Positions 5,191 to 52,414 of a DNA stretch of 64,000 nt are shown piece by piece. The notes beneath the pieces are model-generated. The model worked only from the letters and a program-made list of their open reading frames with translations, did no database searches and had not been told where the DNA came from. A program made the translations under genes and the position numbers. Origin of the DNA: Bacteroidales bacterium (GTDB lineage Bacteria > Bacteroidota > Bacteroidia > Bacteroidales > JAADJA01); NCBI GenBank assembly GCA_020052415.1, contig JAGVPB010000078.1:1-64000 (forward strand). Direction: 5' to 3'. Within the stretch, counting starts at the first letter, position 1. The number at the start of each line of letters is the position of its first letter.

Positions 5191-5276
5191 GTTTTGATGA
5201 ACGAACGTTGAAATACAATTTTAATTCAGGGTTTCTGGCAGCCCGGCATTACGCTCAGGATTTATGTAGATTAGAG

Positions 5277-8552: not shown

Positions 8553-8789
8553 ATGAAAGCAAAACCTGCCTTTATATTAATTACACTCGGCATAATGATA
8601 CTTTTTGGATTGAATAGAATTGTACTTGCAAAAGAAGTGAATATAACCACTGTAAAAAATGTTGCTCTGAACCTGTATCATGAGCGGTCGGGCCTGGCAT
8701 TAAAACAGGCTGTAATCAGCAGGATCATTGAAGAAAAGGAACACGGCGAAACGGTTTACTATATAATGGTTTATTCCGGAAATGGGTAA
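8553..8789 (+). pseudogene. 5' fragment of a C10 peptidase-type secreted protein (propeptide only)
   Basis: A 78-codon frame starting ATG 8553. It has a signal peptide (MKAKPAFILITLGIMILFGL) and then VKNVALNLYHERSG ... ETVYYIMVYSGNG, which resembles the propeptide of C10/streptopain-type peptidases. The peptidase domain that should follow is absent. The frame stops at 8787-8789, exactly where unrelated beta-helix coding sequence begins in another frame. It is best read as the 5' part of a gene whose middle has been lost. The small gene at 4760-5077 carries a similar propeptide-like segment. Confidence 0.6.
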
Positions 8790-11026: not shown

Positions 11027-11041
11027 GGATAAATTAAAATG

Positions 11042-11049
11042 CAAAGTTA
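11042..11049 (-). promoter_or_regulatory. Candidate -7 element for the AAA ATPase gene
   Basis: The minus strand reads TAACTTTG (followed by C), a full match to TAnnTTTG, 16 bp upstream of the ATG at 11026. No -33 TTTG is evident at the usual spacing. Confidence 0.5.
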
Positions 11050-22600: not shown

Positions 22601-25600
22601 CCCGTGGCAGTACAGCAGATTCAAACTGGGCAATGCTGGCTTCGGCCAATTATGTAAATGTTGATGAAAACCGGGCTACTTTTGAAAACATCCAGTCATT
22701 CAGCCAGTTTATCGTGGGTTGTTCTCCTGTGTCACTCATTGAAATAAGCTCATCAGACCTGGATTTTGGCCATATTGCAAGCGAAGATTCGATTTCAGAG
22801 AATATATTAATTAGTAATACAGGTATTGGCTCATTACATATTTCGGACATTATCAATAACCTTCCTGATTTCACTGTCAATCCGGTAACCGCTGAAATTT
22901 TGCCGGGAGAGGAAATGGAAATCCAGGTTAAATTCAAACCCTTGTCGAACCAGGTATTCCGGGATACATTGACCATTTTCTCCGATGCCGCCAATAATCC
23001 TGAGATAAAGGTCAGTTTGACAGGAGCCGCTGATTATCCGGAAATAACTGCTATAGATTTTCCCATATCCATGAAACTGGAAAGCGCTAATTTCTCCGGA
23101 ATAGATGTTGGATACCATTCTATTCCTGCATTCAACGACCTGGATGGGGACGGATTACTTGATCTTTTGATTGGTGAATTTGACGGCAACCTGAACTATT
23201 ACGAACAGGACGCTGCAAATTCGCTAAACTTTTCGTTGGTTACCAGCAACTTTAACAATATTAATGTTTATAATCATGCATCTCCCACATTTACAGACCT
23301 GGATGGAGACGGATTACTGAATTTATTAATTGGAAGACATGATGGCGGTATTCAACATTATGAACAGGTTGCTCAAAATTCGCTTACGTTTTCTCTGGTA
23401 GAATTCACTTTCAATGAAATTGATGTAGGTGATAAAGCTATTCCTGCATTCACTGACATTGATGGAGATGGCTTACTGGATTTATTAATTGGTGAATTTG
23501 AGGGTAATCTGAACCATTACGAACAGGATACAGAATATTCCCTTGCATTTTCCTTGGTAACAACTGATTTTAATAATATTGATGTCGGGAGTTACTCAGC
23601 CCCGGCTTTTACCGATCTGGATGAAAATGGTTTACTGGATTTATTTATAGGCAGTTCGATTGGCTGGCAATTCTACCAATACAAACAAGATGAAGCGAAT
23701 TCCCTCGAATTTTCGTTGATAAATACGGACTTTGGCGGCATTACCGAATGTTATAACTCAGCACCGGTATTTACAGATCTTGATGGTAATGATGTGCAGG
23801 AATTAATCATCGGTAAAGACAATGGCAACCTGAATTATTACAATCAAAAAGAAACCGATTCCCTTATATTTATTACTTTGCCGGGAAATGAAATTATCAA
23901 AAGATATTATATAAGAGGGGATTACATTACCTCTGACATGTCGCTGGATTGTAATGGCAGTGCTTTCAACATTTCAGACAGTGAAACCGGCGTATTCTCA
24001 AATCATTTAGACCTTATATCTGAACAGGGGATTATCTATGAAATCATTTATGTTAAATTTCACCCTACAACCATTGGCGTTTATCAGGATAGTATCATTC
24101 ATTCTGCCGGTTTAATGGCGACGAAAGCAATTTATCTCTCCGGTGAATGTGCTGAGACGGATGGTTTCCCCGGTAATGCCCTTTCTTTTAATAATTCTGA
24201 TAGCTATGTAGATGTGGGTAATGATACCAGTCTCGATGTAGGTAATACATTGACTTTAGAAGCCTGGGTATTTCCTGAAAATCTTAGTGGTCGATTTAGT
24301 ATTTTTTCAACCTTGTTTGCCAGTAAAACCGGATCATTCCAATTCGAAATCGGTGAAGGAAACGGAGGAAGTAATTGTGTTGCCGTAGCGGGTAAAGATA
24401 CATGGATAGCCCAGACGGAAGACAACTCAATTATTTCCGATGCATGGAACCATATTGCTTATACCCGCGAGGGTTCCGGACCAGGGACCCATCATATTTA
24501 TGTGAATGGAGCAGAACAAATCCTGGTAACCAATGAAGATTATACCTTTATAAATAACAATTCGCACAAGGCAGTCGGATGTGGCGAAAACGGGAATTAC
24601 AACTTTAATGGCTATCTGGATGAAGTACGGCTATGGAATGTAGCGCTTGATTCTGTACAGATCAGAGAAAACATGCACATTGTCAGTACCGGATATGAGC
24701 CCGGTTTGGTCAGCTACTGGCAGTTTAACAAAGATGCGGGAAAAATATTACCTGATTATGTTGGCGGAAACGATGGAACCTTAATCAATATGACCAATGG
24801 GCAATGGACCAATTCATCCATTCCATTCGGAAAAGGTTTTGCTGATAGTCAGACCGAACAATCCGGCAATGTTGACTTTTTGAATGAAGGCTTGTCAATG
24901 GTATTCAATTCCTATGGTAATGCTGAGATCACAGTTTCAAGAATTGATACCCTTCCAAATACCTTGCCTTGGCCTGGTTCTGCGTTACACGACCAATACT
25001 GGGTGGTAAACCGCTATGGTAATGGCGCTTTTGATGTTAATATGACATTTTATGTTGCAGAAAATCTGCTACCGGAGGATGAAGCCAATCCGTCAAACAT
25101 TCAATTATTCACCCGTGGCAGTGTGGAAGATACAGACTGGGTTTTCCTTACATCGGCAAGCGCAGTTAGTGCATACGATAACACAGCTACCTTTGATGGG
25201 ATAAGTAGTTTCGGCCAGTTTATCCTTGTAAGGGCTGAAATCGAAATTGAAATTACCCTTAACCTTAAAGTATTTCTCGAAGGGCCGTTCAATGGTTCGG
25301 GGATGAACACCTCTCTAAACCCTGACCTTCCGACATCACAGCCATACTATACCGATCCGTGGAATTATGAAGGAACGGAAGGGGTTGACCTGATGCCCGG
25401 GGAAGCAGTGGATTGGGTGCTTGTTGAACTCCGGGATGCCGAAGATGCTGAATTCGCCACACAATCCACCATTATAGCGAGGCAGGCCGGTTTATTACTT
25501 AATGACGGGACAATTGTAACGACTGACGGCTCTTCACCGCTGACCTTTCAGGTAAATTTTGAGAACCGGTTATTTGTTGTAATACATCACAGAAACTCCC

Positions 25601-25914
25601 TCAGTATCCTATCCTCAGAGTCGATCTATGAAGAGAATGATGTCACTTATTACTACGATTTTACCGAAGATGATGAAGCTGCCTATTCTGATGGACAGGT
25701 TTACCTTGTTAACGGGTATTATGGTATGTATTCCGGCGATATTAATGCCGATGAAGTCATCAATGAAGACGATATCAACCTCTGGAAATCCTTAGCCGGG
25801 TATCCGGTTTATTATGAGATGGAAGATGCCAACCTGGATTCACAGATTGATAATAAAGACAAGAACGACTGCATCATGATCAACCTGAATACTGAAAGCC
25901 AGGTTCCGGAATAA
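13645..25914 (+). CDS. Giant 4089-aa mosaic surface protein: LamG x7, FG-GAP blocks x3, LEGPFNG/dockerin-like module
   Basis: ATG 13645 (MKRIITFLGICLFVTATLEL signal peptide). Seven LamG/concanavalin-like domains (pattern PGTALDFDGSNDYV ... EVWV ... WNHIVYTRD ... YWQFNEGTG) start near residues 26, 491, 853, 1583, 2316, 2676 and 3506. Each is followed by a ~140-residue domain with the pattern ITVTRIDTIPN ... YWVVNRFGTGSFNADLTF ... FSQFIVG. Three blocks of FG-GAP/VCBS-like repeats (FTDLDGDGLLDLLIGE) lie near 1213-1472, 1946-2209 and 3139-3402. Hydin/choice-of-anchor D-like domains lie near 388-487 and 3031-3129, and three other beta-sandwich domains follow the FG-GAP blocks. Residues 3871-4089 are the shared module (LNLKVFLEGPFNG ... 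GDINADEVINEDDINLW ... NTESQVPE). Most likely a surface adhesin or glycan-binding protein. Expression is probably driven from the promoter upstream of the acylphosphatase-like gene. Confidence 0.9.
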   Translation: MKRIITFLGICLFVTATLELQGQIGGYPGTALDFDGSNDYVNVGNDASLNVGNTLTIEVWVYPSALSGRFSVFSTNSNSSPGSFEMEIGNGNGGTRRVAVVGPGTWVAQTEDNAIILNSWNHIVYTRDGIGAGTHHIYVNGAEQILISDLDFTFIDNSSDKLIGSRTTGTQFFQGRMDEVRLWNIALDSIQIRENMHLPVDFNAPGLVSYWQFNEGTGTMTYDLISQNNGVLTNMAENDWVASAIPFGKGYADTQTEAAGTADFTNTGLSAFYHSQSGASVTVSRIDTTANIQPEADSVFSSQYWVVNRFGTGSFNADLTFETAEDLTAEDENTPSKIRLYKRETLSTDDWVYYKSASSVSAANNTATFAGTTDFSQFIVGRDEDFADITVSVNSLDFGTIRPGHQSERSFLLGNYGNAVLHVTGILSDDPQFMPDISSVDIDPNDSIEVNVTFAPVSVGVFTCTLSISSNDQENPEIDIILTGEGKEADGFPGYTLDFDGSNDYVSIGNYTSLNVGNTLTIEVWLKPDDLSTRQSIFSTRKDDDAGSFQLEVGPGDGGTKRVAVTGTGTWVAQTGNDALTQGKWNHIVYTRTADGAGTHKIYINGKLQSLVSDDPYSFIDNSSEKLIGSTTGLSSFFNGQIDELRLWNIVLDSIQIRENMHLPVDFNAPGLVSYWQFNNGSGNSASDYISLNHGVLTNMSEADWVASTIPFGKGYANTQTEINGTVAFANTGFSALYSLQNGASVTVTRIDTIANVSPDADTVFSSQYWVVNRYGTGSFNADLTFSLTEDISQLDLNYPYKLLLYNRSSASASSWTLVKPYDSVNVATRQVTFSNISVNGQFLIACGSFEPDNYPGTCLGFQHNNSVIIANDNALNIANNITIETWIKPGVTTINSNILTKGDISLLYWDNAFEGVTGKGIQINLPGTGSGWWEFNYNMDYDQWYHVAWTFSGSGELKAYINGDQVRTGILSPDITLNTYDLIISSTVNNELFAGNIDELRIWNVVRSKEEIRENMYLSFSGHNQGIVGYWQFNENSGNEVRDLVSYNHGYLSNVLGSTWVSSTIPFGGGNSESHTESLGIVNFGTASLSMYFTGQNGADITVTRIDTIPNTEPSGNLMIFDASYWVINRFGTGNFNADLVFTVAENLTSQDEANPFSFVLYNRPMASEGNWELLAGATSVFVSTHEISFPGITQTGQFIIAKNNQNEDINLFISSNFKKITGYFNSIDVGSYSSPEFANINGESLIELIIGKSDGTLTFCRQGSGDPEYFYISSNNFNGIDIGDNSVPVITDIDNNNRLDLIIGRQDGHISRYQQNSVNSEQFSLVTHNFSSIDVGDRSSPEMTDLDGDGLLDLLVGESWGSIFHYEQSAPNSSTFTLVTAEFNSISDGTLSNPCISDFNKNGLLDLVLGGSSWDIRYYEQDSINSTIFVQKSGYFSDVVAYNAMPVFADVDNDNVSELYCGNSDGRIHQYKQIPIDSLDFVAASAGAITSAKSYFISAFGLIADLHLQCPGGFEISISQNSGYSNELFLATTNGSIEQTVYLRFAPDSVKLYTGNITHSSAGSETVNLPIVGRVGQIENFAGNTLEFDGVDDYVNIGNNSGLNVGNTLTVEMWVKPYSLSTRQALYSTRLTDPSGSFAIEIGPGSSGSGRVAVSGKGTWVAETDDNVVTENQWNHIVYTRSGTGAGTHKIYVNGVLMPLVTDGNYNFANNSYSKLLGTTDTTSQFFQGRMDEVRIWKVVKPELEIRENMYLPINGIEADGLVAYWQFNDGAGMSLSDVLYRNTGTLQNMDESNWNLSSIPFGPGYSETHQETSGIVDFTSAGLSMNFISQNGANITVTRIDTIPNVNQGILGESYNECYWIIDRFGSGSYCTSLTFTLDEEFITNCGDDPENIILYNRSSSSDGNWLLVALAGEINLAAEVIVFNGISKTGQFLVAKKASSKINLLYSNSFNRVTNNFNSIDIGDIASPVFTDLDGDGSLDLIIGEMQNYLDHYEQETPYSENFTLISSHFDTLDVGSNLSPEFTDIDGDGLLDLLIGETAGNINHYEQESPYSTSFQLISPTFNSIDNGNISMPAITDIDGDGLLDLIVGGDNPGMYQYEQTALNALTFSLVTSNFSSISGIEWPQPTFTDFDHDGLLDLIVGGHNGALKHYEQSSINSQAFSLKTGYFDGIDAGYYSSPEFADINYDGLQELYIGNQDGVIYQYIQPVMDSIIFGSVAQGFVTEAKKYIVKADDISDTLFIECPEGFEISLAEHTGFTQELTLIPVNGMVNDSVFVRFAPVADTKYEGEITHTATGTEIKNLPVSGKGAVIDNFPGKILEFDGVDDYVEIADNNNFDITSQITIEAWIKVVSWKPNVWEGSIVCKEGSGSSGYMLRCGDNGKVNFNIGTGSSNEITTDVQNSLTLENWYHIAATYNGNTQSIYINGELVKEKATSGNILTNSGNLRFGSSPSYTTRLFNGKMEEVRIWNIALDSIQIRENMNLPLTGSESGLVGYWQFNDGSGNLLSDIRNGNAGILSNMDENDWMTSTIPFGSGYSHSETETSGIVDFNDAGVTLDYSFHNSAVVTVTRIDTIANILPSGISALDSQYWVINRYGTGAFNAGIEFTVNEDLSQEDENIPGSILLFTRGSTADTNWGFLTQATQVNAATNQVEFENISGFSQFIVCKQDYDGYPGTCLEFDGSGDNIQGTGMDTTMTQVTLEAWVNHSDLGNSIQRYITIQPEAAVLRYDGVSSGGTPKLHFYIKKSSGTLSGVSAVNVLPVGEWTHVAGTYDGADLKLYMNGELVASSSPAGGLYPPNGSFSFSGSGETMNGKLDELRVWNLARTQEQIRESMHIGPGGSNNGLVDYWQFNEGTGSQVTDVISGNFATMINMTNQDWVNSTIPYGFGASDSKTEQPGIIDFESTGLSMDFTAQSGAEITVSLVDIAPNELPAGSDSIFDNQYWVAHRYGSGSFSAGLTFILPENLPDFYENNPSFVHLYTRGSTADSNWAMLASANYVNVDENRATFENIQSFSQFIVGCSPVSLIEISSSDLDFGHIASEDSISENILISNTGIGSLHISDIINNLPDFTVNPVTAEILPGEEMEIQVKFKPLSNQVFRDTLTIFSDAANNPEIKVSLTGAADYPEITAIDFPISMKLESANFSGIDVGYHSIPAFNDLDGDGLLDLLIGEFDGNLNYYEQDAANSLNFSLVTSNFNNINVYNHASPTFTDLDGDGLLNLLIGRHDGGIQHYEQVAQNSLTFSLVEFTFNEIDVGDKAIPAFTDIDGDGLLDLLIGEFEGNLNHYEQDTEYSLAFSLVTTDFNNIDVGSYSAPAFTDLDENGLLDLFIGSSIGWQFYQYKQDEANSLEFSLINTDFGGITECYNSAPVFTDLDGNDVQELIIGKDNGNLNYYNQKETDSLIFITLPGNEIIKRYYIRGDYITSDMSLDCNGSAFNISDSETGVFSNHLDLISEQGIIYEIIYVKFHPTTIGVYQDSIIHSAGLMATKAIYLSGECAETDGFPGNALSFNNSDSYVDVGNDTSLDVGNTLTLEAWVFPENLSGRFSIFSTLFASKTGSFQFEIGEGNGGSNCVAVAGKDTWIAQTEDNSIISDAWNHIAYTREGSGPGTHHIYVNGAEQILVTNEDYTFINNNSHKAVGCGENGNYNFNGYLDEVRLWNVALDSVQIRENMHIVSTGYEPGLVSYWQFNKDAGKILPDYVGGNDGTLINMTNGQWTNSSIPFGKGFADSQTEQSGNVDFLNEGLSMVFNSYGNAEITVSRIDTLPNTLPWPGSALHDQYWVVNRYGNGAFDVNMTFYVAENLLPEDEANPSNIQLFTRGSVEDTDWVFLTSASAVSAYDNTATFDGISSFGQFILVRAEIEIEITLNLKVFLEGPFNGSGMNTSLNPDLPTSQPYYTDPWNYEGTEGVDLMPGEAVDWVLVELRDAEDAEFATQSTIIARQAGLLLNDGTIVTTDGSSPLTFQVNFENRLFVVIHHRNSLSILSSESIYEENDVTYYYDFTEDDEAAYSDGQVYLVNGYYGMYSGDINADEVINEDDINLWKSLAGYPVYYEMEDANLDSQIDNKDKNDCIMINLNTESQVPE
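13705..25250 (+). repeat. Long coding repeats of LamG plus adjacent domain units
   Basis: Seven units of roughly 1.1 kb (LamG plus the ~140-residue companion) recur within the giant gene, separated by FG-GAP and Hydin-like inserts. Units 1, 2 and 7 are closest in protein; segments such as LDSIQIRENMHLPVDFNAPG are nearly identical in units 1 and 2, a sign of fairly recent duplication. Confidence 0.8.
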
Positions 25915-26517: not shown

Positions 26518-29022
26518 ATGTGCTACAAATTTAAGTTTACTCTCGTTTTAATGGTTGCAGCCTTATCAGGCTTTGCTCAGGTAATTTCAACCTTCGATAC
26601 CGACACCGATAACTGGCATTCCGAAGGCGATGGCGATTATTACTGGGAAGCTGCCACCGGCAATCCGGGCGGTTGTTTCCGGGTGGATGATGATGCCACC
26701 GGTGACTGGAACAATGGCTTTGCTCCTGTGAAATTTCTCGGTAACTGGTCATCAGCGACTACATCCGATTATATTTCAGCAAATGTTTTTATTCATCAAA
26801 TTAACGGTAACTATAGTGTAGGAACCTATGTATTTAAAATTAAAGGTCCGGGAGGTGAAGCCACTGCTTTCGTGGATGTTCAGCCTCCACTTGATACCTG
26901 GAATACATACACTGCCTATCTTGATCCTGCAAACTGGACACTCATTTCAGGAACATGGAGTCAGATATTGCAGCAGGTGAATGAGTTGGTTGTAAGGGTA
27001 GAATATATAAACGGCGATGAATATGACAGGATTGATAATGTACAGCTTTCGTTTACACCCGTTGTAATACCTGTGGTACCGGTTGTCTGTTCCGATTTTG
27101 AAGCCGGGGGATTTGATGGCTGGTCATTTGGCTCGACCGCTGGAGTAAGCAACCAGCCAACAGGTGGAAATCCCGGACATTACATCAGGATTACCGATGG
27201 TACGGGAATTTCTACAGCCTATCCTCCGCCCAAATACCTTGGTGACTGGAACCAGTTGGACAATCACAATGCAGATGTCCGGGTTGATCTTAAAGTTACG
27301 GATTTTACCGCAGTTCCATTGTTAAGCAGCTATTTTCTTCGATTATCAGGACCTGGCGGTGTAGCACAGTTTCCTATGGATTATTCCATTTCATTGGCAT
27401 TCAACCAATGGAAAACCTTTGTGTTTCCGGTTGATCAAGCATACTGGACAATGGTTTCAGGCACCTGGGCTGATCTGATGGATCATGTGAATAATTTCGA
27501 AATAATTGTTGAGTTTATTAATGGTACGGAAGTCGTCTGGCTGGATAATTTCTGCATATCCAACCTTCCCCCGGTGGCTGATTTTTCATCCAATAAGCAG
27601 ATTGAATTTGCAGGAAATCCGGTTCAGTTCAATGACCTGTCAGCGGGCGGGCCCGTGGGCTGGAACTGGGACTTCGGTGACAGCCAAAGCTCCGCCGACC
27701 AGTATCCGGTTCATACCTACTTAACCGACGACCTTTATGATGTAAGCCTGACTGCATCCAATAATTTTGGTTCGGATATAGAAGTAAAAACTAATTATAT
27801 TGAGATTCTTCCCATTGATGAATGCCTAAAATACGAAGATAATTTTGACGACGGAATCATTAATCCGCTGATGATCACGAAAAACGGAACGTGGTCAGAA
27901 GCAGATGGAAACATAAGACAGACTTCCAACTATTTTGTGACGGGGAATTTATTGGGCGGTTGTTATGCTATGACAGGTAGTCTTTTGTGGGATAATTACG
28001 TGATCTCCTGCGATATGATGTCAACTGACAACGATCATATCGGTCTGGTTTTTAACTGGCAGGACGACCTGAATACATACATGTTTTACTGGAATGCTGA
28101 GGGAAGTTACCGGCGTCTGTCGAAATGGGTTAATGGTTCGGAAACCATTCTTGCCTCCGAAGCTGTTCCTTATCTTATAAATATCTGGTACAATGTAGAA
28201 ATAACCTCGGTTCCCGGTATTATTACTATTTCAATTGACGGAAGCGATCTGTTCAATGTAAATGATAATACCTTCACCAGCGGGAAAGCTGCGCTGTTTT
28301 GCAGTGGAAACCAGTCGGGCTATTGGGATAATTTCAGGGTCAGTTGCCTGGGAATGCAGGTGCAGTTGCAAACCTGGCTCGAAGGCCCGTTTAACGGCTC
28401 CGGCATGAATACCGATTTAACCGGTTTAACCGATTTCCCTTTGTTGCAACCGTACAACATTGCCCCCTGGAATTATGACGGAAGTGAAAGTGTTATAATT
28501 ATTCCTGCTAATGTCACTGATTGGGTTCTGATAGAGCTTCGTGATGCTACATCGGCAGCGACTGCCACTGCGGCAACACAAATAGCCCGGCAAGCCGCTT
28601 TTCTTATGAACGATGGCAGCATCAGGTCGTTGGATGGAAGCAGTAATCAACAATTTAACAATTTAACCATTCAACATTTATTATTCGCAGTGATCTGGCA
28701 CAGAAACCATCTTGCCGTGATGTCGGCTAATCCTTTGACTGAATCAGCCGGCGTTTATTCGTATGATTTCACAATAGGAGCCGGTCAGGCTTACAACAAC
28801 GGGCAAAAAGAAATTGCACCGGGTATCTGGGGAATGATAGCGGGTGATGCGGATGCGTCGGGAATCGTTGATAGTGGTGATAAATCAATACTTTGGGTAA
28901 CTCAGGCAGGTTTGAATGGATACAATTCATTCGATTTGAACCTTGACTCGGAGACAGAAAATCCTGATAAAGATGACTTCTGGCTGCCGAATATCGGAGA
29001 GGAAAGTCAGGTGCCGGAATAA
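26518..29022 (+). CDS. Secreted laminin-B x2 / PKD / jelly-roll protein with LEGPFNG/dockerin-like module
   Basis: An 834-aa exported protein; ATG 26518 with signal peptide (MCYKFKFTLVLMVAALSGFA). Two laminin-B/laminin IV-like domains (STFDTDTDNWHSEGDG ... WTLISGTWSQILQQVN and FEAGGFDGWSFG ... WTMVSGTWADLMDHVN) occupy ~20-185 and ~190-350. They are followed by a PKD domain (PPVADFSSNKQIEF ... WNWDFGD, ~352-435) and a concanavalin-like domain (YEDNFDDGIINPLM ... GYWDNFRVSC, ~440-610). Residues ~615-834 are the module: LQTWLEGPFNGSGMNTDL, APWNYDGSE, VDWVLIELRD-like TDWVLIELRDA, VIWHRNHLAVMS, loops GDADASGIVDSGDK and DLNLDSETENPDKDDFW, terminus EESQVPE. No catalytic domain is visible. Likely a carbohydrate-binding or adhesive surface protein. 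Confidence 0.87.
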   Translation: MCYKFKFTLVLMVAALSGFAQVISTFDTDTDNWHSEGDGDYYWEAATGNPGGCFRVDDDATGDWNNGFAPVKFLGNWSSATTSDYISANVFIHQINGNYSVGTYVFKIKGPGGEATAFVDVQPPLDTWNTYTAYLDPANWTLISGTWSQILQQVNELVVRVEYINGDEYDRIDNVQLSFTPVVIPVVPVVCSDFEAGGFDGWSFGSTAGVSNQPTGGNPGHYIRITDGTGISTAYPPPKYLGDWNQLDNHNADVRVDLKVTDFTAVPLLSSYFLRLSGPGGVAQFPMDYSISLAFNQWKTFVFPVDQAYWTMVSGTWADLMDHVNNFEIIVEFINGTEVVWLDNFCISNLPPVADFSSNKQIEFAGNPVQFNDLSAGGPVGWNWDFGDSQSSADQYPVHTYLTDDLYDVSLTASNNFGSDIEVKTNYIEILPIDECLKYEDNFDDGIINPLMITKNGTWSEADGNIRQTSNYFVTGNLLGGCYAMTGSLLWDNYVISCDMMSTDNDHIGLVFNWQDDLNTYMFYWNAEGSYRRLSKWVNGSETILASEAVPYLINIWYNVEITSVPGIITISIDGSDLFNVNDNTFTSGKAALFCSGNQSGYWDNFRVSCLGMQVQLQTWLEGPFNGSGMNTDLTGLTDFPLLQPYNIAPWNYDGSESVIIIPANVTDWVLIELRDATSAATATAATQIARQAAFLMNDGSIRSLDGSSNQQFNNLTIQHLLFAVIWHRNHLAVMSANPLTESAGVYSYDFTIGAGQAYNNGQKEIAPGIWGMIAGDADASGIVDSGDKSILWVTQAGLNGYNSFDLNLDSETENPDKDDFWLPNIGEESQVPE

Positions 29023-31194: not shown

Positions 31195-31231
31195 ATAATT
31201 ATATATTTTTACCTGTCCAAAATAATTAAAT

Positions 31232-31969: not shown

Positions 31970-32077
31970 ATTATCTCCGCATTCTTCAAATAATAATTCA
32001 TTCCCGGCGAATAATAATTTACCGGCTTTTCTGAAAAGCCTTGAAACTAACTTTACCGTTCAATTAGCATTTTGCCG

Positions 32078-32612: not shown

Positions 32613-35600
32613 ATGAAAAACAGATTACTAATGCAAGACGGCAAACATAAGATTACATGTTTGCTTATGGGAATTTTTTCCCTTATTCTATCAGGCTTCT
32701 CCGGGTTAAATGCCCAGGTGAATTTTTCTCAAACCCTGAACGCTGATTTCAATAAAGGCGTTTTGAATAATGTACTGGTCGGCAGCGACAATGTTTACCT
32801 TCAGTTTGCAGCCACCGATGTAGGAACATGGCTCACCACTACTGTTCTGCCACAAACCCTCAGCGGTCACAAAACCGCTACCTGGAATAACCAGTACGTT
32901 TATGTAGTCGGCGGATATAATGATATTACCTATTCCAGTGCAGTTTACCGGGCTACAATACAGGCAGGTGGAATCAGCGGATGGACAACGCTCAATTCAC
33001 TTCCGGTCGCTATGAAGGATGTTGCTGTAGTTATTGGAACAAATACCATTTATGTGATAGGCGGGAGAGATGCCTCCCAGGTTTACAACACAATTTATTA
33101 TGCCGCCATTAACACTGATGGCAGTATAGGAACATGGCAGACCTCGGCTATATCATTACCGGCAGCAAGATGGGGGCATACTGCGGTTTATCTGAACGGA
33201 TTTATTTATGTTGCAGGCGGTGCAACTGTTTTAACTGAAACTTCGGCACTCAATACAGTTTATTATTCCAAGGTTCTTGCGGATAATACCCTAGCAGCAT
33301 TCTCAACCGGAACCGCTTTGCCGGCAACAAGAAACAAGCACAGCATGGTAACTTATAACAGCATGCTTTATGTGCTTGGAGGATATGCCAACGGTGGTAC
33401 AAAAGTTAACACCGTTTATTATGCAACACCCGGTGTTAATGGGTCCAACGGTGCATGGTCAACAGCCACTGCACTACCGGTTACTATTAGTAATCACTCA
33501 TCCATAGTAGCGAATGGCTTGATTATGGTTTTGGCCGGAGAAACCGGTGGAACATTAAGCAATACGGTTTACTATGCCAATATTGACCAGACATTGCCCT
33601 GGACATGGGTTACTTCGCCTAATTTATTGTATGATCAAACGAAAGACGGAGCCGCATTTGCAGGCAACGGCATCGTTTATTATACAGGGGGAACAAACCT
33701 GAGCGGAACTCCGATTTTTAATACACGATATGCAAATCTTACTTTGTCAACCAATTATATTAATCATGGAGTTTTTACTTCCAATCCGTTTTATGAGCTT
33801 GGCATTGAAAGGCTGATCAATTCACTTGCATTTACAGCTACCTACTCTGCTCCGGCGAATTGCCAGGTGGGTTACCGTGTAGCGGGAGCTGATAAGATTT
33901 GGGGTGACTGGACAGCGCTTACAGCCACTTCTCCCATTACTGTTAATCAAACAAAACAATACCTGCAATATAAAGTAATACTAACCGGGTCCACCACATT
34001 TAATTCTACCTTTAACGATGCCACCATTACTACTCCGGGAACTCAGTTAAGCGGTAACCTGAATGCCATCACCACTTTCACAATGGCTGCCAGCCCGTAT
34101 TGGGCTACTTCAGATATTTCCTTCACCGCCGGCACACATACTTTTCAGGCAGGTGCAACTATATTGTTCCTTCCAGAAACAGGATTGACCGTAAGCCAGG
34201 CTAATATGATCTGCAGCGGTACTGCCGTTGACTCAGTAAAATTTCTTTACTTCACAAATGAAATGGGCCAATGGGATGGAATTTATTTTGATCCGAACAG
34301 CGATAACGGTGTTTCCTCTCAGTTTACCTATACGGTTATCGGTAATGCTGGGTTTGGAGGCAACAACGCCAATCTTTATTGCAACCAAACCAATGAGCCT
34401 TTACTTACCCGCTGTAACTTAAGGTACGCCGATGGTAATGGTATCCGTTTGAACTCGGCGCACATCAATCTTAATTTATGCGTCTTAAAGGGCAACCTCG
34501 AAAATGGCGCTTATCTTGAGAATTCAAATCCGACCTTCACTGCGACAACCATCAGCAATAATTCGGGAGCCGGTGTATTTCTGACATCTTCAGCCTCCGA
34601 ACCGACTTATAGCACTACCACTATTTCAAATAACCTTTATGGGATGCGTTATCCTTCACCGAATTTTACCATACTTCCTCCAAATGGCTCACCCACTATG
34701 ACCAATAACACCCACAATGGGGTTGCAATAGATGGCGGGGATGTTACATCAAGCAGTAAGGTATGGAATTCCATAAGTTATCCTTATATTTTATTGGGTA
34801 CGGTCAGGATCGTGCAATACGGAAGTTATGTGAGATTAACCATCGAACCAGGAAACACAATTAAAGCATTGACCGGGGTGCAAATACAAATCGGTGCAAG
34901 CAGCAACGGTGGCGAGTTATATGCAATTGGAACTTTGGATAGCCTTATCACTTTCACTTCACATAATGGTTCAGCAGGGGGATGGAATGGTATCTGGTTT
35001 ACCGAATACAGTGATAACTGGGGAAGCCCTTCATCAGTAATGGATTACTGTGTTATTGAAAAAGGCAATGATTATAATTTCTTATCCGAATCCACATCAC
35101 ATCCAACCATCAACCACAGTATCATCCAAAATGCCCTTGTTGATGGTGTAAGAAACTCAGCCTCAACCAATACCATTCAAAACACGCAATTCCTTAACAA
35201 CGGAAGATATCCGTACTATTTCCTTGACCCCGATGCTAATCCGGTTCATACAGGCAATATCTATACCGGTAATGTGATCAACAGGATAGCACTTGCAGGC
35301 GGGCAGTATCCCTGGAACAGAACATTGACCAACGATAACATACCTTATCTGGCATTAAATGATATTATTATGGCTCAATATGCTGGTCATTCCAAACTTA
35401 CATTAGATCCGGGAGTGATCATTGAGTTCGAAGCCGGGAAAAAACTGCAACTTGGTAATCCGGGTAGTTGGGGAGGCGATCTTTTTGCTGAAGGAACCGC
35501 CGGTAACCAGATCACCTTCAGGCCATATAATGGGATCGCCGGAGGCTGGGAAGGAATTTATTTCACTGACCAAAATGATGGCTGGGGAGGAACTTCTTCA

Positions 35601-37769
35601 ATGAAATACTGTATCATCGAGAAAGGGAACCTGTATAACATCAATTGCGAAAGTTCCGGCCAGCCGACAATGGAAAACTGCACGATCAGGAACTCAGCCA
35701 ATGACGGATTAATAGAATATGCTTCGAATCCTTCAATTACAAACTGCCTTTTCCAGAATAATGGCGGATACCCGATCAATTATACCGACTGGACCTGCAA
35801 CTCACTTCTGACAGGAAATATTTATACCGGGAATAATCCAAATTATATCGCACTTTCAGGCGGTGATTACTCATCGAACCGAACACTTTATAATGATGGA
35901 GTACCATACAGGGTTTTGAATAATATTACCATGATGCAATATGCAGGACATTCAAGACTAACCATAGAGCCAGGAGTTACCCTTGCTTTTGAACCCGGGA
36001 AAAAAATACAGTTAGGTTGGCCTGGTAGCTGGGGAGGTGATCTTTATGCAGAAGGTAATGCCGACAGTGTGATTACATTCAAACCTTATAATAACACCAT
36101 AGGTGGTTGGGATGGTATTTATTTCACTGACCAAAATGATACCTGGGGAGGAACTTCCTCCCTGAAATATTGTAACATAGAGAAAGCCGCCAATTATAAT
36201 ATACTTGCTGAAAGTTCGGGTCAGCCCTACATGGAGCATTGCATCCTTACCCAATCAGCCGGCAACGGTTTGAAACTGACAAGTTCGACGATAAACATAC
36301 GCAACTGCACCTTCTCATATAACGGATCGTATGGAATACTCTTGGAAGGATCGAGCGCTCCGACCATTGGTAACGATGCTCTTTACACAAATAACCTATA
36401 TAATAACATCGGATACGAAGTTTATAACAATACGGCCAACAACATCAATGCACGTTACAATTACTGGGGAACCGGCGATTCGGCGATGATTGCAGCACGC
36501 ATTTATGATAAGTACGACAATACAGCCAAAGGAATTGTTTACTTCGATGATTTTGCACAGTTACCATCAATCCCTTACCCAACCATGATATTAGGCGGGA
36601 CTGTTAAATATGCAAATGTCGGTGCCAATCCAATGAAAAACGCTGCCATGGTAATTAAAGATTTCGGAGGAGCAACAATTGCCACTACCAACACAAATAC
36701 TTCTGGAGTATATGCATTCAGTTCCATACCTTCCGGTAATTACCAGATGACCATCACACCTTCCAATGCATGGGGTGGCGTAAATTCGACGGATGCCTTG
36801 CTGATCCTGAACCATTTTGCACAGATAAGCCTGCTTACAGGGATGAATCTTGCAGCAGCCGATGTAAATTATAGCCATACCGTCAACGGGACTGATGTAC
36901 TGCTGGTCATGAGGCGGTATTCAGGTTTGATCAGTTCCTTCCCGGCAGGTGATTATCTCTATAACACCGATACTATTATTTTCAACGGGAACCTGGTTAC
37001 CAACAATTTCGATATGTTGTGCTTCGGGGATGTAAATGCTTCTTATGCCCCTGTCGCCCAAACCGACGAATCACCGGTTATTCTCAATTATGAAGGATCG
37101 CTTGTGGTACCCTCTTTCAGCGAATTTAACCTCGATGTTAAAATTCAAAACAGTCTTGAGGTTGGAGCGATTTCCCTCGGATTCTATTATCCTGAAGAAT
37201 ATCTTGAAATAACCGGTGCTGAAATGGCAAATGGCAACACCAATATGGTTTGGCATGCTGAAAATGGTTTATTCAGGATGGGATGGTGCGATCTGAATCC
37301 TATAAATACGATTGCAGGTGAAACGTTGATCACACTGAAAATCAAGACGAAAGATTTAACAGGACTTACCGGCAGCATTGCTCTTGAGTTGTTTGAAGAT
37401 TCTGAATTTGCCGATGCATCTGCAAACGTAAATTACGGCGTTATCCTTGAAATACCTGAAATCCAGACACTCATGGTCGGTATAATCAATTCATCGTCTG
37501 AAATCAGACTTAGCGCAAATCCAAATCCTGTCAGGGATAAAACAGTTGTGGAGTTCGAAATTCCCGAACCGGCTCATGTAAAACTGGCAGTTTATAATTT
37601 GATGGGAATAATGGTCCAATCCATTACGGATGATAATTATGCTGCTGGCAGCTATACATTGGAGATGAATACCCAAAACATAGAATCCGGAATTTACCTG
37701 TGTAAAATTGAAGTAACAAATGATCATCAGGAATATTCGAAAATGATAAAAATGGTGGTATCCAAATAA
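32613..37769 (+). CDS. 1718-aa kelch / beta-helix / dockerin / cohesin-like protein with T9SS type A tail
   Basis: ATG 32613, signal peptide ending near residue 35 (SGFSGLNAQ). Residues ~60-385 are kelch-like propeller repeats (YVVGGYNDITYSSAVYRATI, YVIGGRDASQVYNTIYYA). Residues ~480-1310 are right-handed beta-helix repeats with a large repeated unit (QYAGHSRLTIEPGVTLAFE ... GGWDGIYFTDQND). Residues ~1328-1386 look like a carboxypeptidase-regulatory-like beta-sandwich. Residues ~1388-1440 are dockerin-like (GVNSTDALLILNHFA and AADVNYSHTVNGTDVLLVMR). Residues ~1489-1625 resemble a cohesin domain (FNLDVKIQNSLEVGAISLGF ... AGETLITLKIK). Residues ~1634-1718 are a T9SS type A tail (LSANPNPVRDKTVVEFEI ... 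GIYLCKIEV). It lies 11 bp upstream of the four-cohesin gene, so the two are probably co-transcribed. It may be a connector between dockerin- and cohesin-bearing partners. Confidence 0.85.
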   Translation: MKNRLLMQDGKHKITCLLMGIFSLILSGFSGLNAQVNFSQTLNADFNKGVLNNVLVGSDNVYLQFAATDVGTWLTTTVLPQTLSGHKTATWNNQYVYVVGGYNDITYSSAVYRATIQAGGISGWTTLNSLPVAMKDVAVVIGTNTIYVIGGRDASQVYNTIYYAAINTDGSIGTWQTSAISLPAARWGHTAVYLNGFIYVAGGATVLTETSALNTVYYSKVLADNTLAAFSTGTALPATRNKHSMVTYNSMLYVLGGYANGGTKVNTVYYATPGVNGSNGAWSTATALPVTISNHSSIVANGLIMVLAGETGGTLSNTVYYANIDQTLPWTWVTSPNLLYDQTKDGAAFAGNGIVYYTGGTNLSGTPIFNTRYANLTLSTNYINHGVFTSNPFYELGIERLINSLAFTATYSAPANCQVGYRVAGADKIWGDWTALTATSPITVNQTKQYLQYKVILTGSTTFNSTFNDATITTPGTQLSGNLNAITTFTMAASPYWATSDISFTAGTHTFQAGATILFLPETGLTVSQANMICSGTAVDSVKFLYFTNEMGQWDGIYFDPNSDNGVSSQFTYTVIGNAGFGGNNANLYCNQTNEPLLTRCNLRYADGNGIRLNSAHINLNLCVLKGNLENGAYLENSNPTFTATTISNNSGAGVFLTSSASEPTYSTTTISNNLYGMRYPSPNFTILPPNGSPTMTNNTHNGVAIDGGDVTSSSKVWNSISYPYILLGTVRIVQYGSYVRLTIEPGNTIKALTGVQIQIGASSNGGELYAIGTLDSLITFTSHNGSAGGWNGIWFTEYSDNWGSPSSVMDYCVIEKGNDYNFLSESTSHPTINHSIIQNALVDGVRNSASTNTIQNTQFLNNGRYPYYFLDPDANPVHTGNIYTGNVINRIALAGGQYPWNRTLTNDNIPYLALNDIIMAQYAGHSKLTLDPGVIIEFEAGKKLQLGNPGSWGGDLFAEGTAGNQITFRPYNGIAGGWEGIYFTDQNDGWGGTSSMKYCIIEKGNLYNINCESSGQPTMENCTIRNSANDGLIEYASNPSITNCLFQNNGGYPINYTDWTCNSLLTGNIYTGNNPNYIALSGGDYSSNRTLYNDGVPYRVLNNITMMQYAGHSRLTIEPGVTLAFEPGKKIQLGWPGSWGGDLYAEGNADSVITFKPYNNTIGGWDGIYFTDQNDTWGGTSSLKYCNIEKAANYNILAESSGQPYMEHCILTQSAGNGLKLTSSTINIRNCTFSYNGSYGILLEGSSAPTIGNDALYTNNLYNNIGYEVYNNTANNINARYNYWGTGDSAMIAARIYDKYDNTAKGIVYFDDFAQLPSIPYPTMILGGTVKYANVGANPMKNAAMVIKDFGGATIATTNTNTSGVYAFSSIPSGNYQMTITPSNAWGGVNSTDALLILNHFAQISLLTGMNLAAADVNYSHTVNGTDVLLVMRRYSGLISSFPAGDYLYNTDTIIFNGNLVTNNFDMLCFGDVNASYAPVAQTDESPVILNYEGSLVVPSFSEFNLDVKIQNSLEVGAISLGFYYPEEYLEITGAEMANGNTNMVWHAENGLFRMGWCDLNPINTIAGETLITLKIKTKDLTGLTGSIALELFEDSEFADASANVNYGVILEIPEIQTLMVGIINSSSEIRLSANPNPVRDKTVVEFEIPEPAHVKLAVYNLMGIMVQSITDDNYAAGSYTLEMNTQNIESGIYLCKIEVTNDHQEYSKMIKMVVSK
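34740..36300 (+). repeat. Three ~550-bp coding repeats in the beta-helix region
   Basis: Three units, about 34.74-35.28, 35.28-35.83 and 35.83-36.30 kb, encode the same order of motifs (start NRTL or equivalent, then QYAGHSRLTIEPG, GSWGGDLYAEG, GGWDGIYFTDQND, KYCNIEK). Units two and three are the most alike. Confidence 0.75.
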
Positions 37770-37780
37770 AATTGTGAAAT

Positions 37781-40700
37781 ATGAAAACACTAATTTTAAA
37801 AATCATACCGCTGTTGTTCATTTTTATCTTGCCGGGCATAATCCATGCCCAGACGATAACAACCACGGCCGGGACAGTAACAAGCTGTCCCGGGGAAATC
37901 GTGGTTCCCATTGACGTGACCAACTTTAACGGAGTGGGAGCCATTTCCCTCATGCTGAATTACAACAACTCTGTACTTACCTATCTCGGATACCAGAATG
38001 TGCATGCTGCTCTTTCGACCGGACTGCTGATTGTTAATTCAACAGGCAGTAAGGTAATCGTAAGCTGGGCGTCCACAACACCTGCCACTTTCGGCAGCGG
38101 TACCCTGATACAATTCAGGTTTACGGGAGTACCGGGCACAAGCAGTTTAACATGGGATACCCAGACGCCCGGTAACTGTGAATACAGCGACAGCAACGGA
38201 AATATTCTTGCTGCGACATTTATCAACGGGACTGCTACGGTACAACAACCGCCGTTAATCAACACCCATCCAACAGATAAGGTAGCTTTGGTCGGACAGA
38301 ATACCAGCTTTACGATCAGCGCGGTTGCCACAGGAATCAGCTATCTATGGCAATTGAGCACTAACGGGGGCAGTTCTTATGGCAATTTGTCAAACGGAGG
38401 ATCCTATTCCGGAGTTTTGACTGCAACACTCAACATATCTTCGGTTCAGATAACGATGAACGGATATAAATACAGATGTGTGGTTAGCGGAACATGCACG
38501 CCACCCGCAACTTCAAACGCAGGAACGCTTACGGTTATCAATCCTGTGACAACCACTTTGCCGACTACAAGTGTGTGCCCTGGTAATATAATTGTCCCGG
38601 TGACGGTAACAAATTTCACATCGGTTGCAGCATTTTCTCTGACCTTCGCTTATAATACATCGGTGCTTACTTATACAGGCTACCAATCCCTGAACGGTGC
38701 TCTGGCAGGAGGTAATTTTATTGCAAATGCCATTGGTGGTAAAGTTTATTTGTCATGGTCGAAAACTACGGCGGTAACTTTTGGAGACGGAACAATCGTG
38801 GAATTACTTTTTACCAATGCAACAGGAACCAGCAGCCTGACATGGGACACGCAGACCGCAGGAAACTGCGAATACAGCGATGTAAATGGTACGCTCATCA
38901 CTTCAGTATTTGTGAATGGCAATATAACCAGTTACGGATTACCGGTAATTGTAACGCATCCTGTCAATAAAACGATTGCTAAGGGACAGAATACCAGTTT
39001 CAGCGTGACGGCTTCAGGATCGGGATTGGCCTACCTGTGGCAGGTTAGTACCAACGGAGGTTCTTCTTATTCTGACCTGGCCAATGGCGGAGTATATTCC
39101 AATGTTACAACAGCCACCATGAATATCACCGGAGCGACACTCGCTATGAATGGATACCTGTACAAGTGCAGGGTGAGTGGAACGTGCACGCCTGTGGTTT
39201 ATTCCAATCCGGCGCTGCTGACTGTTTTACCAAATATCATCACTGCCTGCCAAACCATTTCCGGATGTCCGGGTCAGTTGGTTGTACCGGTGAATGTGAC
39301 GGATTTTATCAGCGTGGGATCTTTTTCAATGGTGCTGCAATTCAACACTGCAGTACTCACATATACCGGCTACCAGAGCTTAAATACAGCGCTCAGTGGT
39401 GGTAATTTTGCAGCAAATGCAGCCTCAGGAAGTGTTTTTATTTCATGGTCAAGACTTACAGCGGCCACAATTGCAAACGGTGCCGTCCTGATCGAACTTA
39501 AATTTACCGGAGTGCCTGGTTCCAGCAGTCTGAACTGGAATACCACAACACCGGGATATTGTGAATACAGCGATATTACAGGTGTGATCTATTATTCAAC
39601 CTGGACGAACGGGAGTGTCACGGTTTACCAGCCTCCGCAAATAACTTCCAATCCAACGAATAAGACGATTTACTCAGGCGGAAGTACGAGTTTTTCTGTT
39701 ACAGCCACAGGTACAGGCCTCGGCTATCAATGGCAGGAAAGTACGAATGGAGGGGCTAACTGGTCAAACCTGTCGAATGGTTCACCCTATTCAGGTGTAT
39801 ATACGGCTACACTTACGATCAATCCTGCCAATCAGACTATGAATGGCTATCAATACCGTTGTTATGTTACCGGAACCTGTACACCATTTGTTTATTCCAA
39901 TGCAGCCCTGCTTACCGTTACCGCACAGGCCATCACAACCGGTGCAGGAAACATAAGCAATTCATGTTCAGGGAATCTGACCATCCCGGTAAATGTTGTG
40001 AACTGTAATAATGTTGGCGGCATTTCGCTGGTTTTGAACTATGATCCGTCTAAACTCTTATATGATGGTTATCAATCGCCCAATGCTGAGCTTGCAGCCG
40101 GATTATTGATCGTAAACGATAACGGGACGCAGGTTCTGATGAGCTGGGCTTCCACAAATCCGGCGGATATTGGTTCGGGAGTTCTCATTCAGTACAAATT
40201 CAAAGGGAATGCTGGGATTTCAACAACACTTTCCTGGGATACACAAACTGAAGGCAACTGCGAATACAGTGATATTTCAGGAAACGTGATCACATCCTTT
40301 TATGTTAATGGAACAGTTTCGATTGCTGCGAATGCCCTGATCGCTAATGCAGGCACCGATGTGATCATTAACCCGGGAGGTAATACGCAATTGAACGGAT
40401 CGGTTACAGGAGGAGCAACTCCTTATGGATATTTGTGGTCGCCTGCGACATGGTTAAGCAACCCGGCTATTCCGAACCCGATTTCTACACCGGAAGCTAC
40501 GATCACCTATACACTGACAGTAACAGATAACAATACGTGTGTTTCCACGGATAATGTAACAGTGACTGTTGCAGCACCGCTGATCTCACTAAACCTTAAA
40601 ATCATTTTGGAAGGGCCTTTTGTTACCTCGGATATGAATACTCTTCTGAACAGCAATGGTGTGATTCCGCTTGAGCAACCGTACGGAATATCACCATGGT

Positions 40701-41260
40701 TTTACACGGGAGGTGAATCGGTTACTGGAATACCAAATGTAAATGTGACGGATTGGGTTTTGATTGAACTCCGCCAGACAACAGGAGGCCCTGCCACGGC
40801 AACATCCGGAACAAGGATCGCGCAGAAAGCGGGATTTGTCATGAAGAACGGGAATATTGTAGATTCGGATGGTTCTTCATTTTTGCAAATAAATGCAAAC
40901 ATTACTCAAAACCTGTATGTGGTTGTGTGGCACAGGAATCACCTGGGAATTATGTCGGCAAATGCAGTAACACAATCGGGCGGAGTTTACACTTATGACT
41001 TCACCAACAGCTCTGCGAAAGCGTACGGAGGAACCCTTGCTCAAAAGCAGCTTGCCACGGGAATATGGGGAATGGTAACAGGTGACGGAAACGGCGATAA
41101 GCTTATAAATACCACGGATAAAACAGTTGTTTGGGTGAGCCAGGCGGGGAAGATGGGTTATTTGACCGGCGATTTTAACATGAATGTGCAGGTAAATAAC
41201 CAGGACAAGAATGACAAGTGGCTGTTGAATACAAGTTATCAGTCTCAGGTACCAAACTAA
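37781..41260 (+). CDS. Four-cohesin-like scaffold protein with Ig-like domains and LEGPFNG/dockerin-like module
   Basis: An 1159-aa exported protein (signal peptide MKTLILKIIPLLFIFILPGI). Four cohesin-like domains lie near residues 24-157, 257-383, 483-612 and 716-850, each with the pattern CPGEIVVPIDVTNFNGVGAI, LMLNYNNSVLTYLGYQ, IVSWASTTPATFGSGTLIQF, SSLTWDTQTPGNCEYSD. Ig-like domains (ITSNPTNKTIYSGGSTSF ... YQWQESTNGG ... GYQYRCYVTGTC) sit between them. A PKD/Ig-like domain (~851-933) precedes the module at 935-1159 (LNLKIILEGPFVTSDMNT ... GDGNGDKLINTTDK ... GDFNMNVQVNNQDKNDKW ... YQSQVPN). Cohesins of this type bind dockerins in cellulosomes; four in series suggest a scaffold role. The protein ends in the same module as its presumed partners, so self-assembly is possible. 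It follows the preceding gene by 11 bp. Confidence 0.85.
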   Translation: MKTLILKIIPLLFIFILPGIIHAQTITTTAGTVTSCPGEIVVPIDVTNFNGVGAISLMLNYNNSVLTYLGYQNVHAALSTGLLIVNSTGSKVIVSWASTTPATFGSGTLIQFRFTGVPGTSSLTWDTQTPGNCEYSDSNGNILAATFINGTATVQQPPLINTHPTDKVALVGQNTSFTISAVATGISYLWQLSTNGGSSYGNLSNGGSYSGVLTATLNISSVQITMNGYKYRCVVSGTCTPPATSNAGTLTVINPVTTTLPTTSVCPGNIIVPVTVTNFTSVAAFSLTFAYNTSVLTYTGYQSLNGALAGGNFIANAIGGKVYLSWSKTTAVTFGDGTIVELLFTNATGTSSLTWDTQTAGNCEYSDVNGTLITSVFVNGNITSYGLPVIVTHPVNKTIAKGQNTSFSVTASGSGLAYLWQVSTNGGSSYSDLANGGVYSNVTTATMNITGATLAMNGYLYKCRVSGTCTPVVYSNPALLTVLPNIITACQTISGCPGQLVVPVNVTDFISVGSFSMVLQFNTAVLTYTGYQSLNTALSGGNFAANAASGSVFISWSRLTAATIANGAVLIELKFTGVPGSSSLNWNTTTPGYCEYSDITGVIYYSTWTNGSVTVYQPPQITSNPTNKTIYSGGSTSFSVTATGTGLGYQWQESTNGGANWSNLSNGSPYSGVYTATLTINPANQTMNGYQYRCYVTGTCTPFVYSNAALLTVTAQAITTGAGNISNSCSGNLTIPVNVVNCNNVGGISLVLNYDPSKLLYDGYQSPNAELAAGLLIVNDNGTQVLMSWASTNPADIGSGVLIQYKFKGNAGISTTLSWDTQTEGNCEYSDISGNVITSFYVNGTVSIAANALIANAGTDVIINPGGNTQLNGSVTGGATPYGYLWSPATWLSNPAIPNPISTPEATITYTLTVTDNNTCVSTDNVTVTVAAPLISLNLKIILEGPFVTSDMNTLLNSNGVIPLEQPYGISPWFYTGGESVTGIPNVNVTDWVLIELRQTTGGPATATSGTRIAQKAGFVMKNGNIVDSDGSSFLQINANITQNLYVVVWHRNHLGIMSANAVTQSGGVYTYDFTNSSAKAYGGTLAQKQLATGIWGMVTGDGNGDKLINTTDKTVVWVSQAGKMGYLTGDFNMNVQVNNQDKNDKWLLNTSYQSQVPN

Positions 41261-45021: not shown

Positions 45022-45027
45022 CGACCC

Positions 45028-46080: not shown

Positions 46081-46087
46081 AATCAAA

Positions 46088-52404: not shown

Positions 52405-52414
52405 AACCCGCAAT

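Follow-up and report, generated by a model that had tools for sequence, protein, structure and literature searches.

The X-module-dockerin dyad (XDoc) has its definition from cellulosomes, in which the C-terminal type II dockerin of the scaffoldin binds the type II cohesins of surface anchors (PMC5141474; all papers are cited here from excerpts of their text). Assemblies of a related plan are described in other phyla: a cellulosome-like complex with glycoside hydrolase (GH) families GH18 and GH57 and S8/S53 and C25 enzymes has been inferred in 'Ca. Stygibacter' (Cloacimonadota; PMC8542988), in a paper that cites Lasica 2017 for a C-terminal attachment domain, and a peptidase-carrying 'planctosome' has been proposed in Planctomycetes (PMC6461901). 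Within the Bacteroidota, the excerpt of a paper on a rumen Bacteroidetes states that it has neither cohesins nor dockerins, like other genomes in this phylum (PMC5831590), and Dockerin_1 matches are mentioned in a few Bacteroidales cells (PMC10266427). Here we describe a locus in a Bacteroidales bacterium, in a window of 64,000 nucleotides (assembly GCA_020052415.1, contig JAGVPB010000078.1, positions 1 to 64,000). Two adjacent plus-strand genes, gene A (32613..37769) and gene B (37781..41260), probably encode two scaffold components of a cellulosome-like, calcium-dependent surface assembly that is anchored through the type IX secretion system (T9SS) and holds exported proteins. A first-pass annotation of this DNA placed scaffold-type assemblies mainly in Firmicutes and considered one built from T9SS-type mosaics to be new, which was overstated, as the excerpts on Cloacimonadota (PMC8542988) and on the planctosome (PMC6461901) already propose such assemblies. 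The literature covered, which leaves out most subscription journals, yielded no description of a T9SS-anchored scaffold built on XDoc or cohesin in this phylum.

Gene B encodes the scaffold, a protein of 1159 amino acids that starts at the ATG at 37781, has an N-terminal signal peptide (judged by eye) and ends with the stop codon at 41260. The whole protein matches the Pfam family Cohesin (PF00963) at E 9.2e-25 in four stretches, each of which individually exceeds the curated cut-off: 37859..38242 (E 1.4e-6), 38546..38929 (E 2.5e-9), 39263..39625 (E 9.3e-6) and 39974..40324 (E 4.1e-8). The cohesins alternate with three Ig_3 stretches (Pfam; the best is at 39632..39871, residues 618-697), and are followed by a single PKD-like domain (40349..40570, residues 857-930, E 1e-3, below the curated cut-off) and by a C-terminal module of 225 residues (40583..41257). 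All features of gene B, like those of gene A, lie on the plus strand. The first-pass annotation had the open reading frame (ORF) exactly, and its four cohesin-type repeats, the Ig-like spacers between them and the presence of a dockerin-like module on the scaffold itself, here its C-terminal end, all hold. A genome-wide search with PF00963 finds 10 cohesins, nine of them above the cut-off, to which our own cohesin profiles add the gene A-type cohesins at C9:37065-37481 and C21:9634-10041 as well as repeats on contigs C91 and C22.

The C-terminal module of gene B, which also ends five other ORFs of the window, has no Pfam or NCBIfam match in scans of the scaffold and of three or more XDoc-bearing window ORFs. 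Its AlphaFold2 model, built from 61 aligned copies, has a predicted local distance difference test score (pLDDT) of 97.8 and a predicted template modelling score (pTM) of 0.94, and consists of a beta domain followed by two helices at residues 177-187 and 206-216. In a Foldseek comparison of this model with the PDB, ranks 1-6 are X-module-dockerin chains of Acetivibrio and Clostridium thermocellum scaffoldins (E 1.8e-3 to 9e-2). With VIA-align, XDoc entries of the PDB fill the first eight rows (Z 9.0-10.4; 141-148 residues aligned, root-mean-square deviation (rmsd) 3.6-4.0, 14-16% identity) and the next row has Z 4.9, while the dockerin-only chain 2y3n_B aligns to residues 162-223 (Z 4.7). The predicted model has the fold of the whole type II dyad, a beta X module on a two-helix dockerin.

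The dockerin part carries two 12-residue calcium loops of EF-hand/dockerin type, in gene B at 41084..41119 (module residues 168-179) and 41171..41206 (module residues 197-208). Aspartate occupies position 1 of loop 1 in 59 of the 61 aligned copies and position 12 in all 61; the corresponding counts for loop 2 are 61 and 60, and Asn or Asp fills positions 3 and 5 in 52-61 copies. Because the predicted fold matches XDoc dyads and the calcium loops are near-invariant, the module is named XDoc; by predicted fold it is an X-module-dockerin dyad, and would on that ground be expected to bind cohesin. Two loops of dockerin form had been noted at the outset and are confirmed by these counts; the extent of the module, about 225 residues and thus more than two loops, had been missed. 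The AlphaFold check that the first-pass annotation advised for such modules yields the predicted X-module-dockerin fold of cellulosomal scaffoldins.

The five other XDoc copies of the window are 44-54% identical to the scaffold copy. They end an exported ORF at 5965..7410 (signal peptide by eye; XDoc 6742-7407), an ORF without visible signal peptide, probably a gene fragment, at 8782..9660 (XDoc 8983-9657), a 4089-aa protein with laminin-G-like and FG-GAP repeats at 13645..25914 (XDoc 25252-25911), a PKD protein at 26518..29022 (XDoc 28354-29019) and a further protein at 53637..56936 (XDoc 56268-56933), all on the plus strand. Dockerin-like ends on four of these, those starting at 5965, 13645, 26518 and 53637, had been recognized, and the copy at 8782-9660 is added. 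XDoc remnants with internal stops are also present at 5271-5408 and 26209-26325, and appear from their sequence to be signs of cargo-gene duplication and decay. Searched with a profile of the six window copies, the 4.67-Mb assembly yields 75 matching places. At 64 of them the match spans at least 216 of the 223 profile positions, which exceeds what chance would give, and 63 of the 64 are free of internal stops.

The position of XDoc within its proteins raises an alternative, namely that the module is a C-terminal sorting or retention signal that occupies the place of a T9SS tail and is read by the secretion machinery, cohesin binding being secondary or absent. The stop codon follows XDoc directly in all six window copies. 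Outside the window there are 58 near-full-length copies, and in 51 of them the ORF stops no more than 14 residues past the module (in 46 of these 51, no more than 2), which brings the total to 57 of all 64; in related loci the ORF ends at most 28 residues past XDoc in 104 of 111 cases, some of which reach the locus edge. The last residues Q, V and P are kept in 53, 55 and 59 of the 61 aligned copies, and genomes with XDoc and no detectable cohesin exist. These observations speak for a terminal signal. However, the module is predicted to fold like a dyad known to bind cohesin and keeps its calcium loops intact, XDoc co-occurs strongly with cohesin (see below), and 7 of the 58 copies continue for at least 200 residues beyond the module, one being still open at the end of its stretch. 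A signal of this kind is therefore judged unlikely.

Four of the seven long tails were scanned and all match Fib_succ_major (PF09603); the other three look alike by eye. This order, XDoc followed by one or more Fib_succ_major domains, is seen in the window's genome (G000) at C46:45861, C91:4143, C35:1160 and C31:92390 and in three other places. Similar tails follow XDoc in loci L060, L064, L071, L073 and L094 of other metagenome-assembled genomes (MAGs), and ORFs of L176 and L186 have a signal peptide and XDoc, then Fib_succ_major-like sequence. No T9SS tail was seen by eye on gene B or on the 64 near-full-length XDoc copies (with Pfam scans of four tails). One frame departs from the rule that XDoc and T9SS tail do not meet: a 2210-aa open frame of the window's genome, at C9:69027-70454, combines a partial XDoc (C9:69027, positions 2-179) with a T9SS tail (C9:70248), which also speaks against XDoc as a sorting signal in the place of that tail.

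Gene A, which ends 11 bases before gene B and whose dockerin and cohesin fold had been overlooked in the first-pass annotation, is the candidate surface anchor. It contains Kelch and beta-helix regions (Pfam), a Dockerin_1 match (PF00404; 36774..36917, E 5.5e-7), a cohesin-fold domain (37065..37481, by predicted structure) and a T9SS sorting tail (37521..37748; Por_Secre_tail / TIGR04183, E 4.3e-10). A whole-protein scan with PF00963 gives no match at E 1. The model, from an alignment of five rows, has a pLDDT of 54.4 as a whole and of about 80 at residues 163-300. Foldseek returns 18 rows below E 1e-3 for the domain (best E 1e-5), comprising 16 cohesin chains, one multi-domain scaffoldin chain (4fl4_I) and one integrin, and the best VIA-align row is cohesin 4uyq_A (Z 12.4, rmsd 2.8, 129 residues); the predicted domain has the nine-stranded cohesin fold. 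With this fold between a dockerin and a T9SS tail, gene A looks like a T9SS-anchored cohesin protein.

Gene A combines a C-terminal Por_Secre_tail with the presence in the genome of the T9SS core gene SprA/Sov (2566 bits); at least 150 T9SS tails are scored among 301 candidates of the genome. The review Lasica 2017 is said to treat T9SS. An analogue of gene A on contig C91 has a beta helix, a Pfam cohesin (E 5.5e-15) and a T9SS tail, and another on C21 has Dockerin_1 and a tail match below the cut-off (E 5.7e-5). The description of the scaffold and its XDoc neighbours as 'T9SS-type mosaics' is ruled out: their C-termini are XDoc, and it is the upstream partner that has the tail.

The pairing of anchor and scaffold recurs in related genomes, where the first-pass annotation advised looking for it. 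Among 76 loci from named records, nearly all of them Bacteroidales MAGs and representing the best 80 of 486 relatives, six ORFs have cohesins by our own profile, and five of these are gene B orthologues: four cohesins and XDoc are present in L047, L083, L089 and L093, and three cohesins are seen in the truncated L046. Gene A lies upstream of the gene B orthologue in all four loci that reach that far, with only the end of gene A in L089. In 20 further regions, a biased choice because they were picked for their cohesin hits, an A-like gene adjoins a gene with one to four cohesins in 14 (L129, L130, L133-L138, L140-L143, L145 and L146). These 14 regions span eight genomes and five families of the order, the window's genome included. 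A whole or incomplete XDoc is recognizable on the second gene in 13 of these regions, all but L146, which ends before the XDoc position; it is incomplete in L138, L142 and L145, and in L140 the contig stops within it. The second gene of L130 has one cohesin, a smaller cohesin gene lies between the pair in L140, and in L141 gene A is represented by its end alone. A comparable pair that lacks XDoc occurs in a ninth genome, G231. XDoc genes also occur in L077 and L102, in a MAG labelled Candidatus Thermoplasmatota, perhaps on misbinned Bacteroidales contigs.

Smaller arrangements exist as well. One-cohesin proteins with XDoc are found in G000, G103, G109, G112 and G245, and cohesin proteins with a T9SS tail adjoin cohesin-XDoc genes in two other families: a 672-aa protein of G112 has a Pfam cohesin and a T9SS tail (E 2e-9), and a 362-aa protein of G107 has a cohesin by our own profile only (E 8e-11) and a T9SS tail below the cut-off (E 6.8e-5).

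Trees of 92 cohesins and 170 XDocs, which are quick searches with many weak forks, give different pictures for the two partners. Window-type gene A cohesins form one group (11 rows; 99 in the Shimodaira-Hasegawa-like approximate likelihood ratio test (SH-aLRT)), C91-type gene A cohesins form a separate one (6 rows, SH-aLRT 99), and gene B repeats 2 and 4 each cluster with their positional counterparts from other species (7 rows apiece, SH-aLRT 96 and 99); repeat 3 gives no clean group. The scaffold XDocs are not one clade: 13 copies need 9 label changes, no more than 3 of which are required by starred branches. Their clustering exceeds that of 500 shuffles (mean 12.7, no shuffle reaching down to 9), although orthologues alone would give as much. 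Thus, judged from these trees, cohesins fall into types and XDocs not obviously so. As scaffold and cargo XDocs are not separated into clades, a scaffold XDoc could dock where cargo docks, and the chains suggested in the first-pass annotation are possible.

These trees bear on a second alternative, a periplasmic assembly or a self-polymerised layer of gene B protein in which each XDoc binds a cohesin of the next molecule. Gene B bears both partners, the tree does not set its XDoc apart from those of the cargo, and neither gene B nor the cargo has a terminal T9SS tail. Such a structure would leave unexplained why the T9SS-tailed gene A is the immediate neighbour of gene B, in the window and on other contigs, and why smaller T9SS-tailed cohesin proteins adjoin such genes elsewhere; we consider it highly improbable.

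XDoc co-occurs with cohesin across genomes beyond what secretome size and family relatedness account for. In a sample of 247 genomes of the order, XDoc is found in 32 and cohesin in 69, and PF00963 is present in 27 of the 32 XDoc genomes and in 42 of the 215 others (Mantel-Haenszel odds ratio 18, p 7e-8, stratified by the count of T9SS-tail candidates). With one genome per family, cohesin is present in 15 of 17 with XDoc and in 22 of 95 without (p 5e-7); restricted to genomes with at least 100 T9SS-tail candidates, these figures are 14 of 16 and 10 of 30 (p 6e-4). Where a genome has at least six XDoc matches, cohesin is nearly always found (13 of 14), and in a sample of 394 genomes of the phylum it is found in 33 of 50 XDoc genomes and 96 of 344 others. 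These association figures use PF00963 counts made before the search was repeated with our own profiles; that search of the 22 XDoc genomes without PF00963, with two cohesin profiles, added four cohesins in G190.

The cargo was sampled from 40 regions of the same genome around XDoc genes and from the window, 41 of the 64 copies in all; nearly all XDoc ORFs of the 40 regions begin with a signal peptide (by eye). Pfam scans of the parts preceding XDoc in 41 proteins (three from the window; 25 of 49 families listed, 30 proteins scanned singly) identify peptidases of families M14 (two), M28, S8, C1 and M1, a peptidyl-arginine deiminase, a GDSL lipase, three metallophosphoesterases and a sugar dehydrogenase. 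Alpha-glucan enzymes are represented by a GH13 amylase with X25, a GH57 protein and a protein with carbohydrate-binding modules (CBMs) CBM20/CBM48. PKD, CUB and laminin-G proteins are also present, and several sampled proteins have no Pfam family. Two loci, L184 and L159, encode possible multihaem c-type cytochromes ending in XDoc (L184 just above and L159 just below the cut-off), which from their sequence might be electron-transfer proteins among the cargo of a scaffold.

The genome has both a multi-cohesin scaffoldin and a set of dockerin-bearing exported proteins (export by eye). No cellulase family is among the 25 of 49 families listed for the 41 XDoc proteins, nor among the 30 scanned singly, and neither cellulase or hemicellulase cargo nor a cellulose-binding module was found in these rows, which sample 41 of the 64 copies. 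Because no cellulose-directed cargo was seen, the assembly is not filed as a cellulosome, and membership under that name is ruled out for the sampled set.

XDoc proteins often resemble adhesins (laminin G, PKD, Ig, CUB), which fits a third alternative: cohesin and XDoc may be ordinary calcium-stabilised beta-modules of mosaic, adhesin-like surface proteins, with contacts that go no further than pairs or stay within one molecule. Cohesins and dockerins are also known outside cellulosomes (for example 2xdh), and a dockerin and a cohesin stand side by side in gene A. A stray module, however, would need neither arrays of three or four cohesins whose positions are partly kept, nor a gene pair that recurs, nor 64 near-full-length copies of XDoc in one genome, making this alternative quite improbable.

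A T9SS-anchored scaffold assembly is thus the preferred reading of the locus. T9SS would export and fix the gene A protein as an anchor bearing one cohesin of its own type. Gene B would dock by its C-terminal XDoc onto the cohesin of gene A or of another scaffold and offer four cohesin sockets, into which about sixty further proteins of the genome, mostly exported, would plug by their XDoc in a calcium-dependent manner. We infer from this arrangement a surface location, the binding partners and a joint action on proteins and alpha-glucans. Gene B and the cargo begin with Sec-type signals (by eye); for their outer-membrane step, piggy-back docking before export, an XDoc signal, or a periplasmic complex might apply.

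A more far-reaching idea, tentative and rather unlikely, would make XDoc an outer-surface address common to a second class of exported proteins in T9SS bacteria. While still in the periplasm, tailless cargo would dock on the cohesin that a tailed anchor of gene A type carries, and would cross the outer membrane preassembled; or else XDoc would itself be a new class of T9SS signal. If either were true, cohesin-dockerin pairing would be part of secretion, beyond the clustering of enzymes.

Several observations weigh against the preferred reading. PF00404 does not match the XDoc module in four XDoc ORFs at E 1; the three matches of this family in the genome fall within gene A-type genes, outside any XDoc module, and a PDB profile search with the module alignment gives only subthreshold dockerin rows (E 0.76-1.5). 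A distant relative in G112 matches PF00404 at E 0.0039, below the cut-off. The non-match is treated as a gap of the profile, and the module is called XDoc-like by fold, not a member of Pfam Dockerin_1. The fold match itself has only 12-16% identity (Foldseek, VIA-align), no Foldseek row against the PDB for the XDoc model is below E 1e-3, and residues 1-162 of the gene A model, the dockerin half, are of low confidence. Cargo and gene B lack the T9SS tail that would account for their passage across the outer membrane. The absence of a clade of scaffold XDocs apart from cargo XDocs means that an ordered two-level assembly is unsupported by XDoc type. The association figures were computed without a tree of the genomes, and in 21 XDoc genomes no cohesin is found by PF00963 or the two own profiles: 4 of the 32 sampled in the order and 17 of the 50 sampled in the phylum, among them G042 (at least 12 XDoc matches, 89% complete) and G334 (6 matches). 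In these genomes XDoc either has another use or has a diverged partner; an undetected partner is conceivable because PF00963 also misses the cohesin of gene A.

Other genes surround the scaffold pair. Two sets of histidine kinase and LytTR genes (29077-32575, confirmed by Pfam, and 49117-53188, by eye) each lie directly upstream of a scaffold or XDoc gene, and may regulate the assembly. The second set is separated from the scaffold pair by 41610-49021, which encodes a Type I restriction-modification system with HsdM, HsdS and a RhuM-family ORF (Pfam) and an HsdR-like helicase ORF (by eye). On the minus strand are an AbiEii-type nucleotidyl transferase (7544-8170; Pfam) and an AAA_14/DUF4143 ATPase split into two ORFs (9771-11074; Pfam).

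The anatomical case for an XDoc-based, T9SS-anchored scaffold is strong, and similar non-cellulosic assemblies have already been proposed elsewhere. It provides a predicted fold and a likely partner for a 225-residue module found on some sixty proteins of one genome, and raises the question of how exported XDoc proteins without a T9SS tail reach the surface. If the domains do pair, they could also serve engineering as new cohesin-XDoc types native to Gram-negative cells.

The scaffold resembles C. thermocellum CipA/ScaA and Acetivibrio ScaA in having a cohesin array with a C-terminal X-module-dockerin, and shares with clostridial scaffoldins a separate surface-anchored cohesin protein and the XDoc dyad fold (PMC5141474). 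It differs from them in that XDoc is found on cargo as well as on the scaffold, in the length of the module (225 residues versus about 156) and in the sampled cargo, which has no cellulose-directed family. The anchor here carries a T9SS tail, whereas clostridial anchors are held by a Gram-positive cell-wall anchor. The non-cellulosomal cohesin of Archaeoglobus fulgidus (2xdh) is like that of gene A, for which it is the second-best Foldseek row at 24% identity; the system to which it belongs is archaeal, has few genes and is not known to have a cargo set.

The planctosome of Nemodlikiaceae likewise has a cohesin anchor, an adaptor with dockerin and cohesin, and peptidase cargo including M14, and is distinguished by lamin-tail anchoring, its few components and its occurrence in Planctomycetes (PMC6461901). 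Like this locus, the complex inferred in 'Ca. Stygibacter' combines a scaffoldin of tandem cohesins with enzymes, GH57 and S8/S53 among them, that bear dockerins at their C-termini; it too has a C-terminal surface-attachment domain, and starch and protein are among its targets (PMC8542988). Compared by description, its single scaffoldin of 3,755 amino acids carries CBM2/CBM3 and a C-terminal domain (CTD) of its own (PMC8542988), whereas here anchor and scaffold are adjacent genes and the XDoc docking unit is found on some sixty proteins. The locus described here suggests that some environmental Bacteroidota use scaffold-and-plug assembly as a strategy at their surface.

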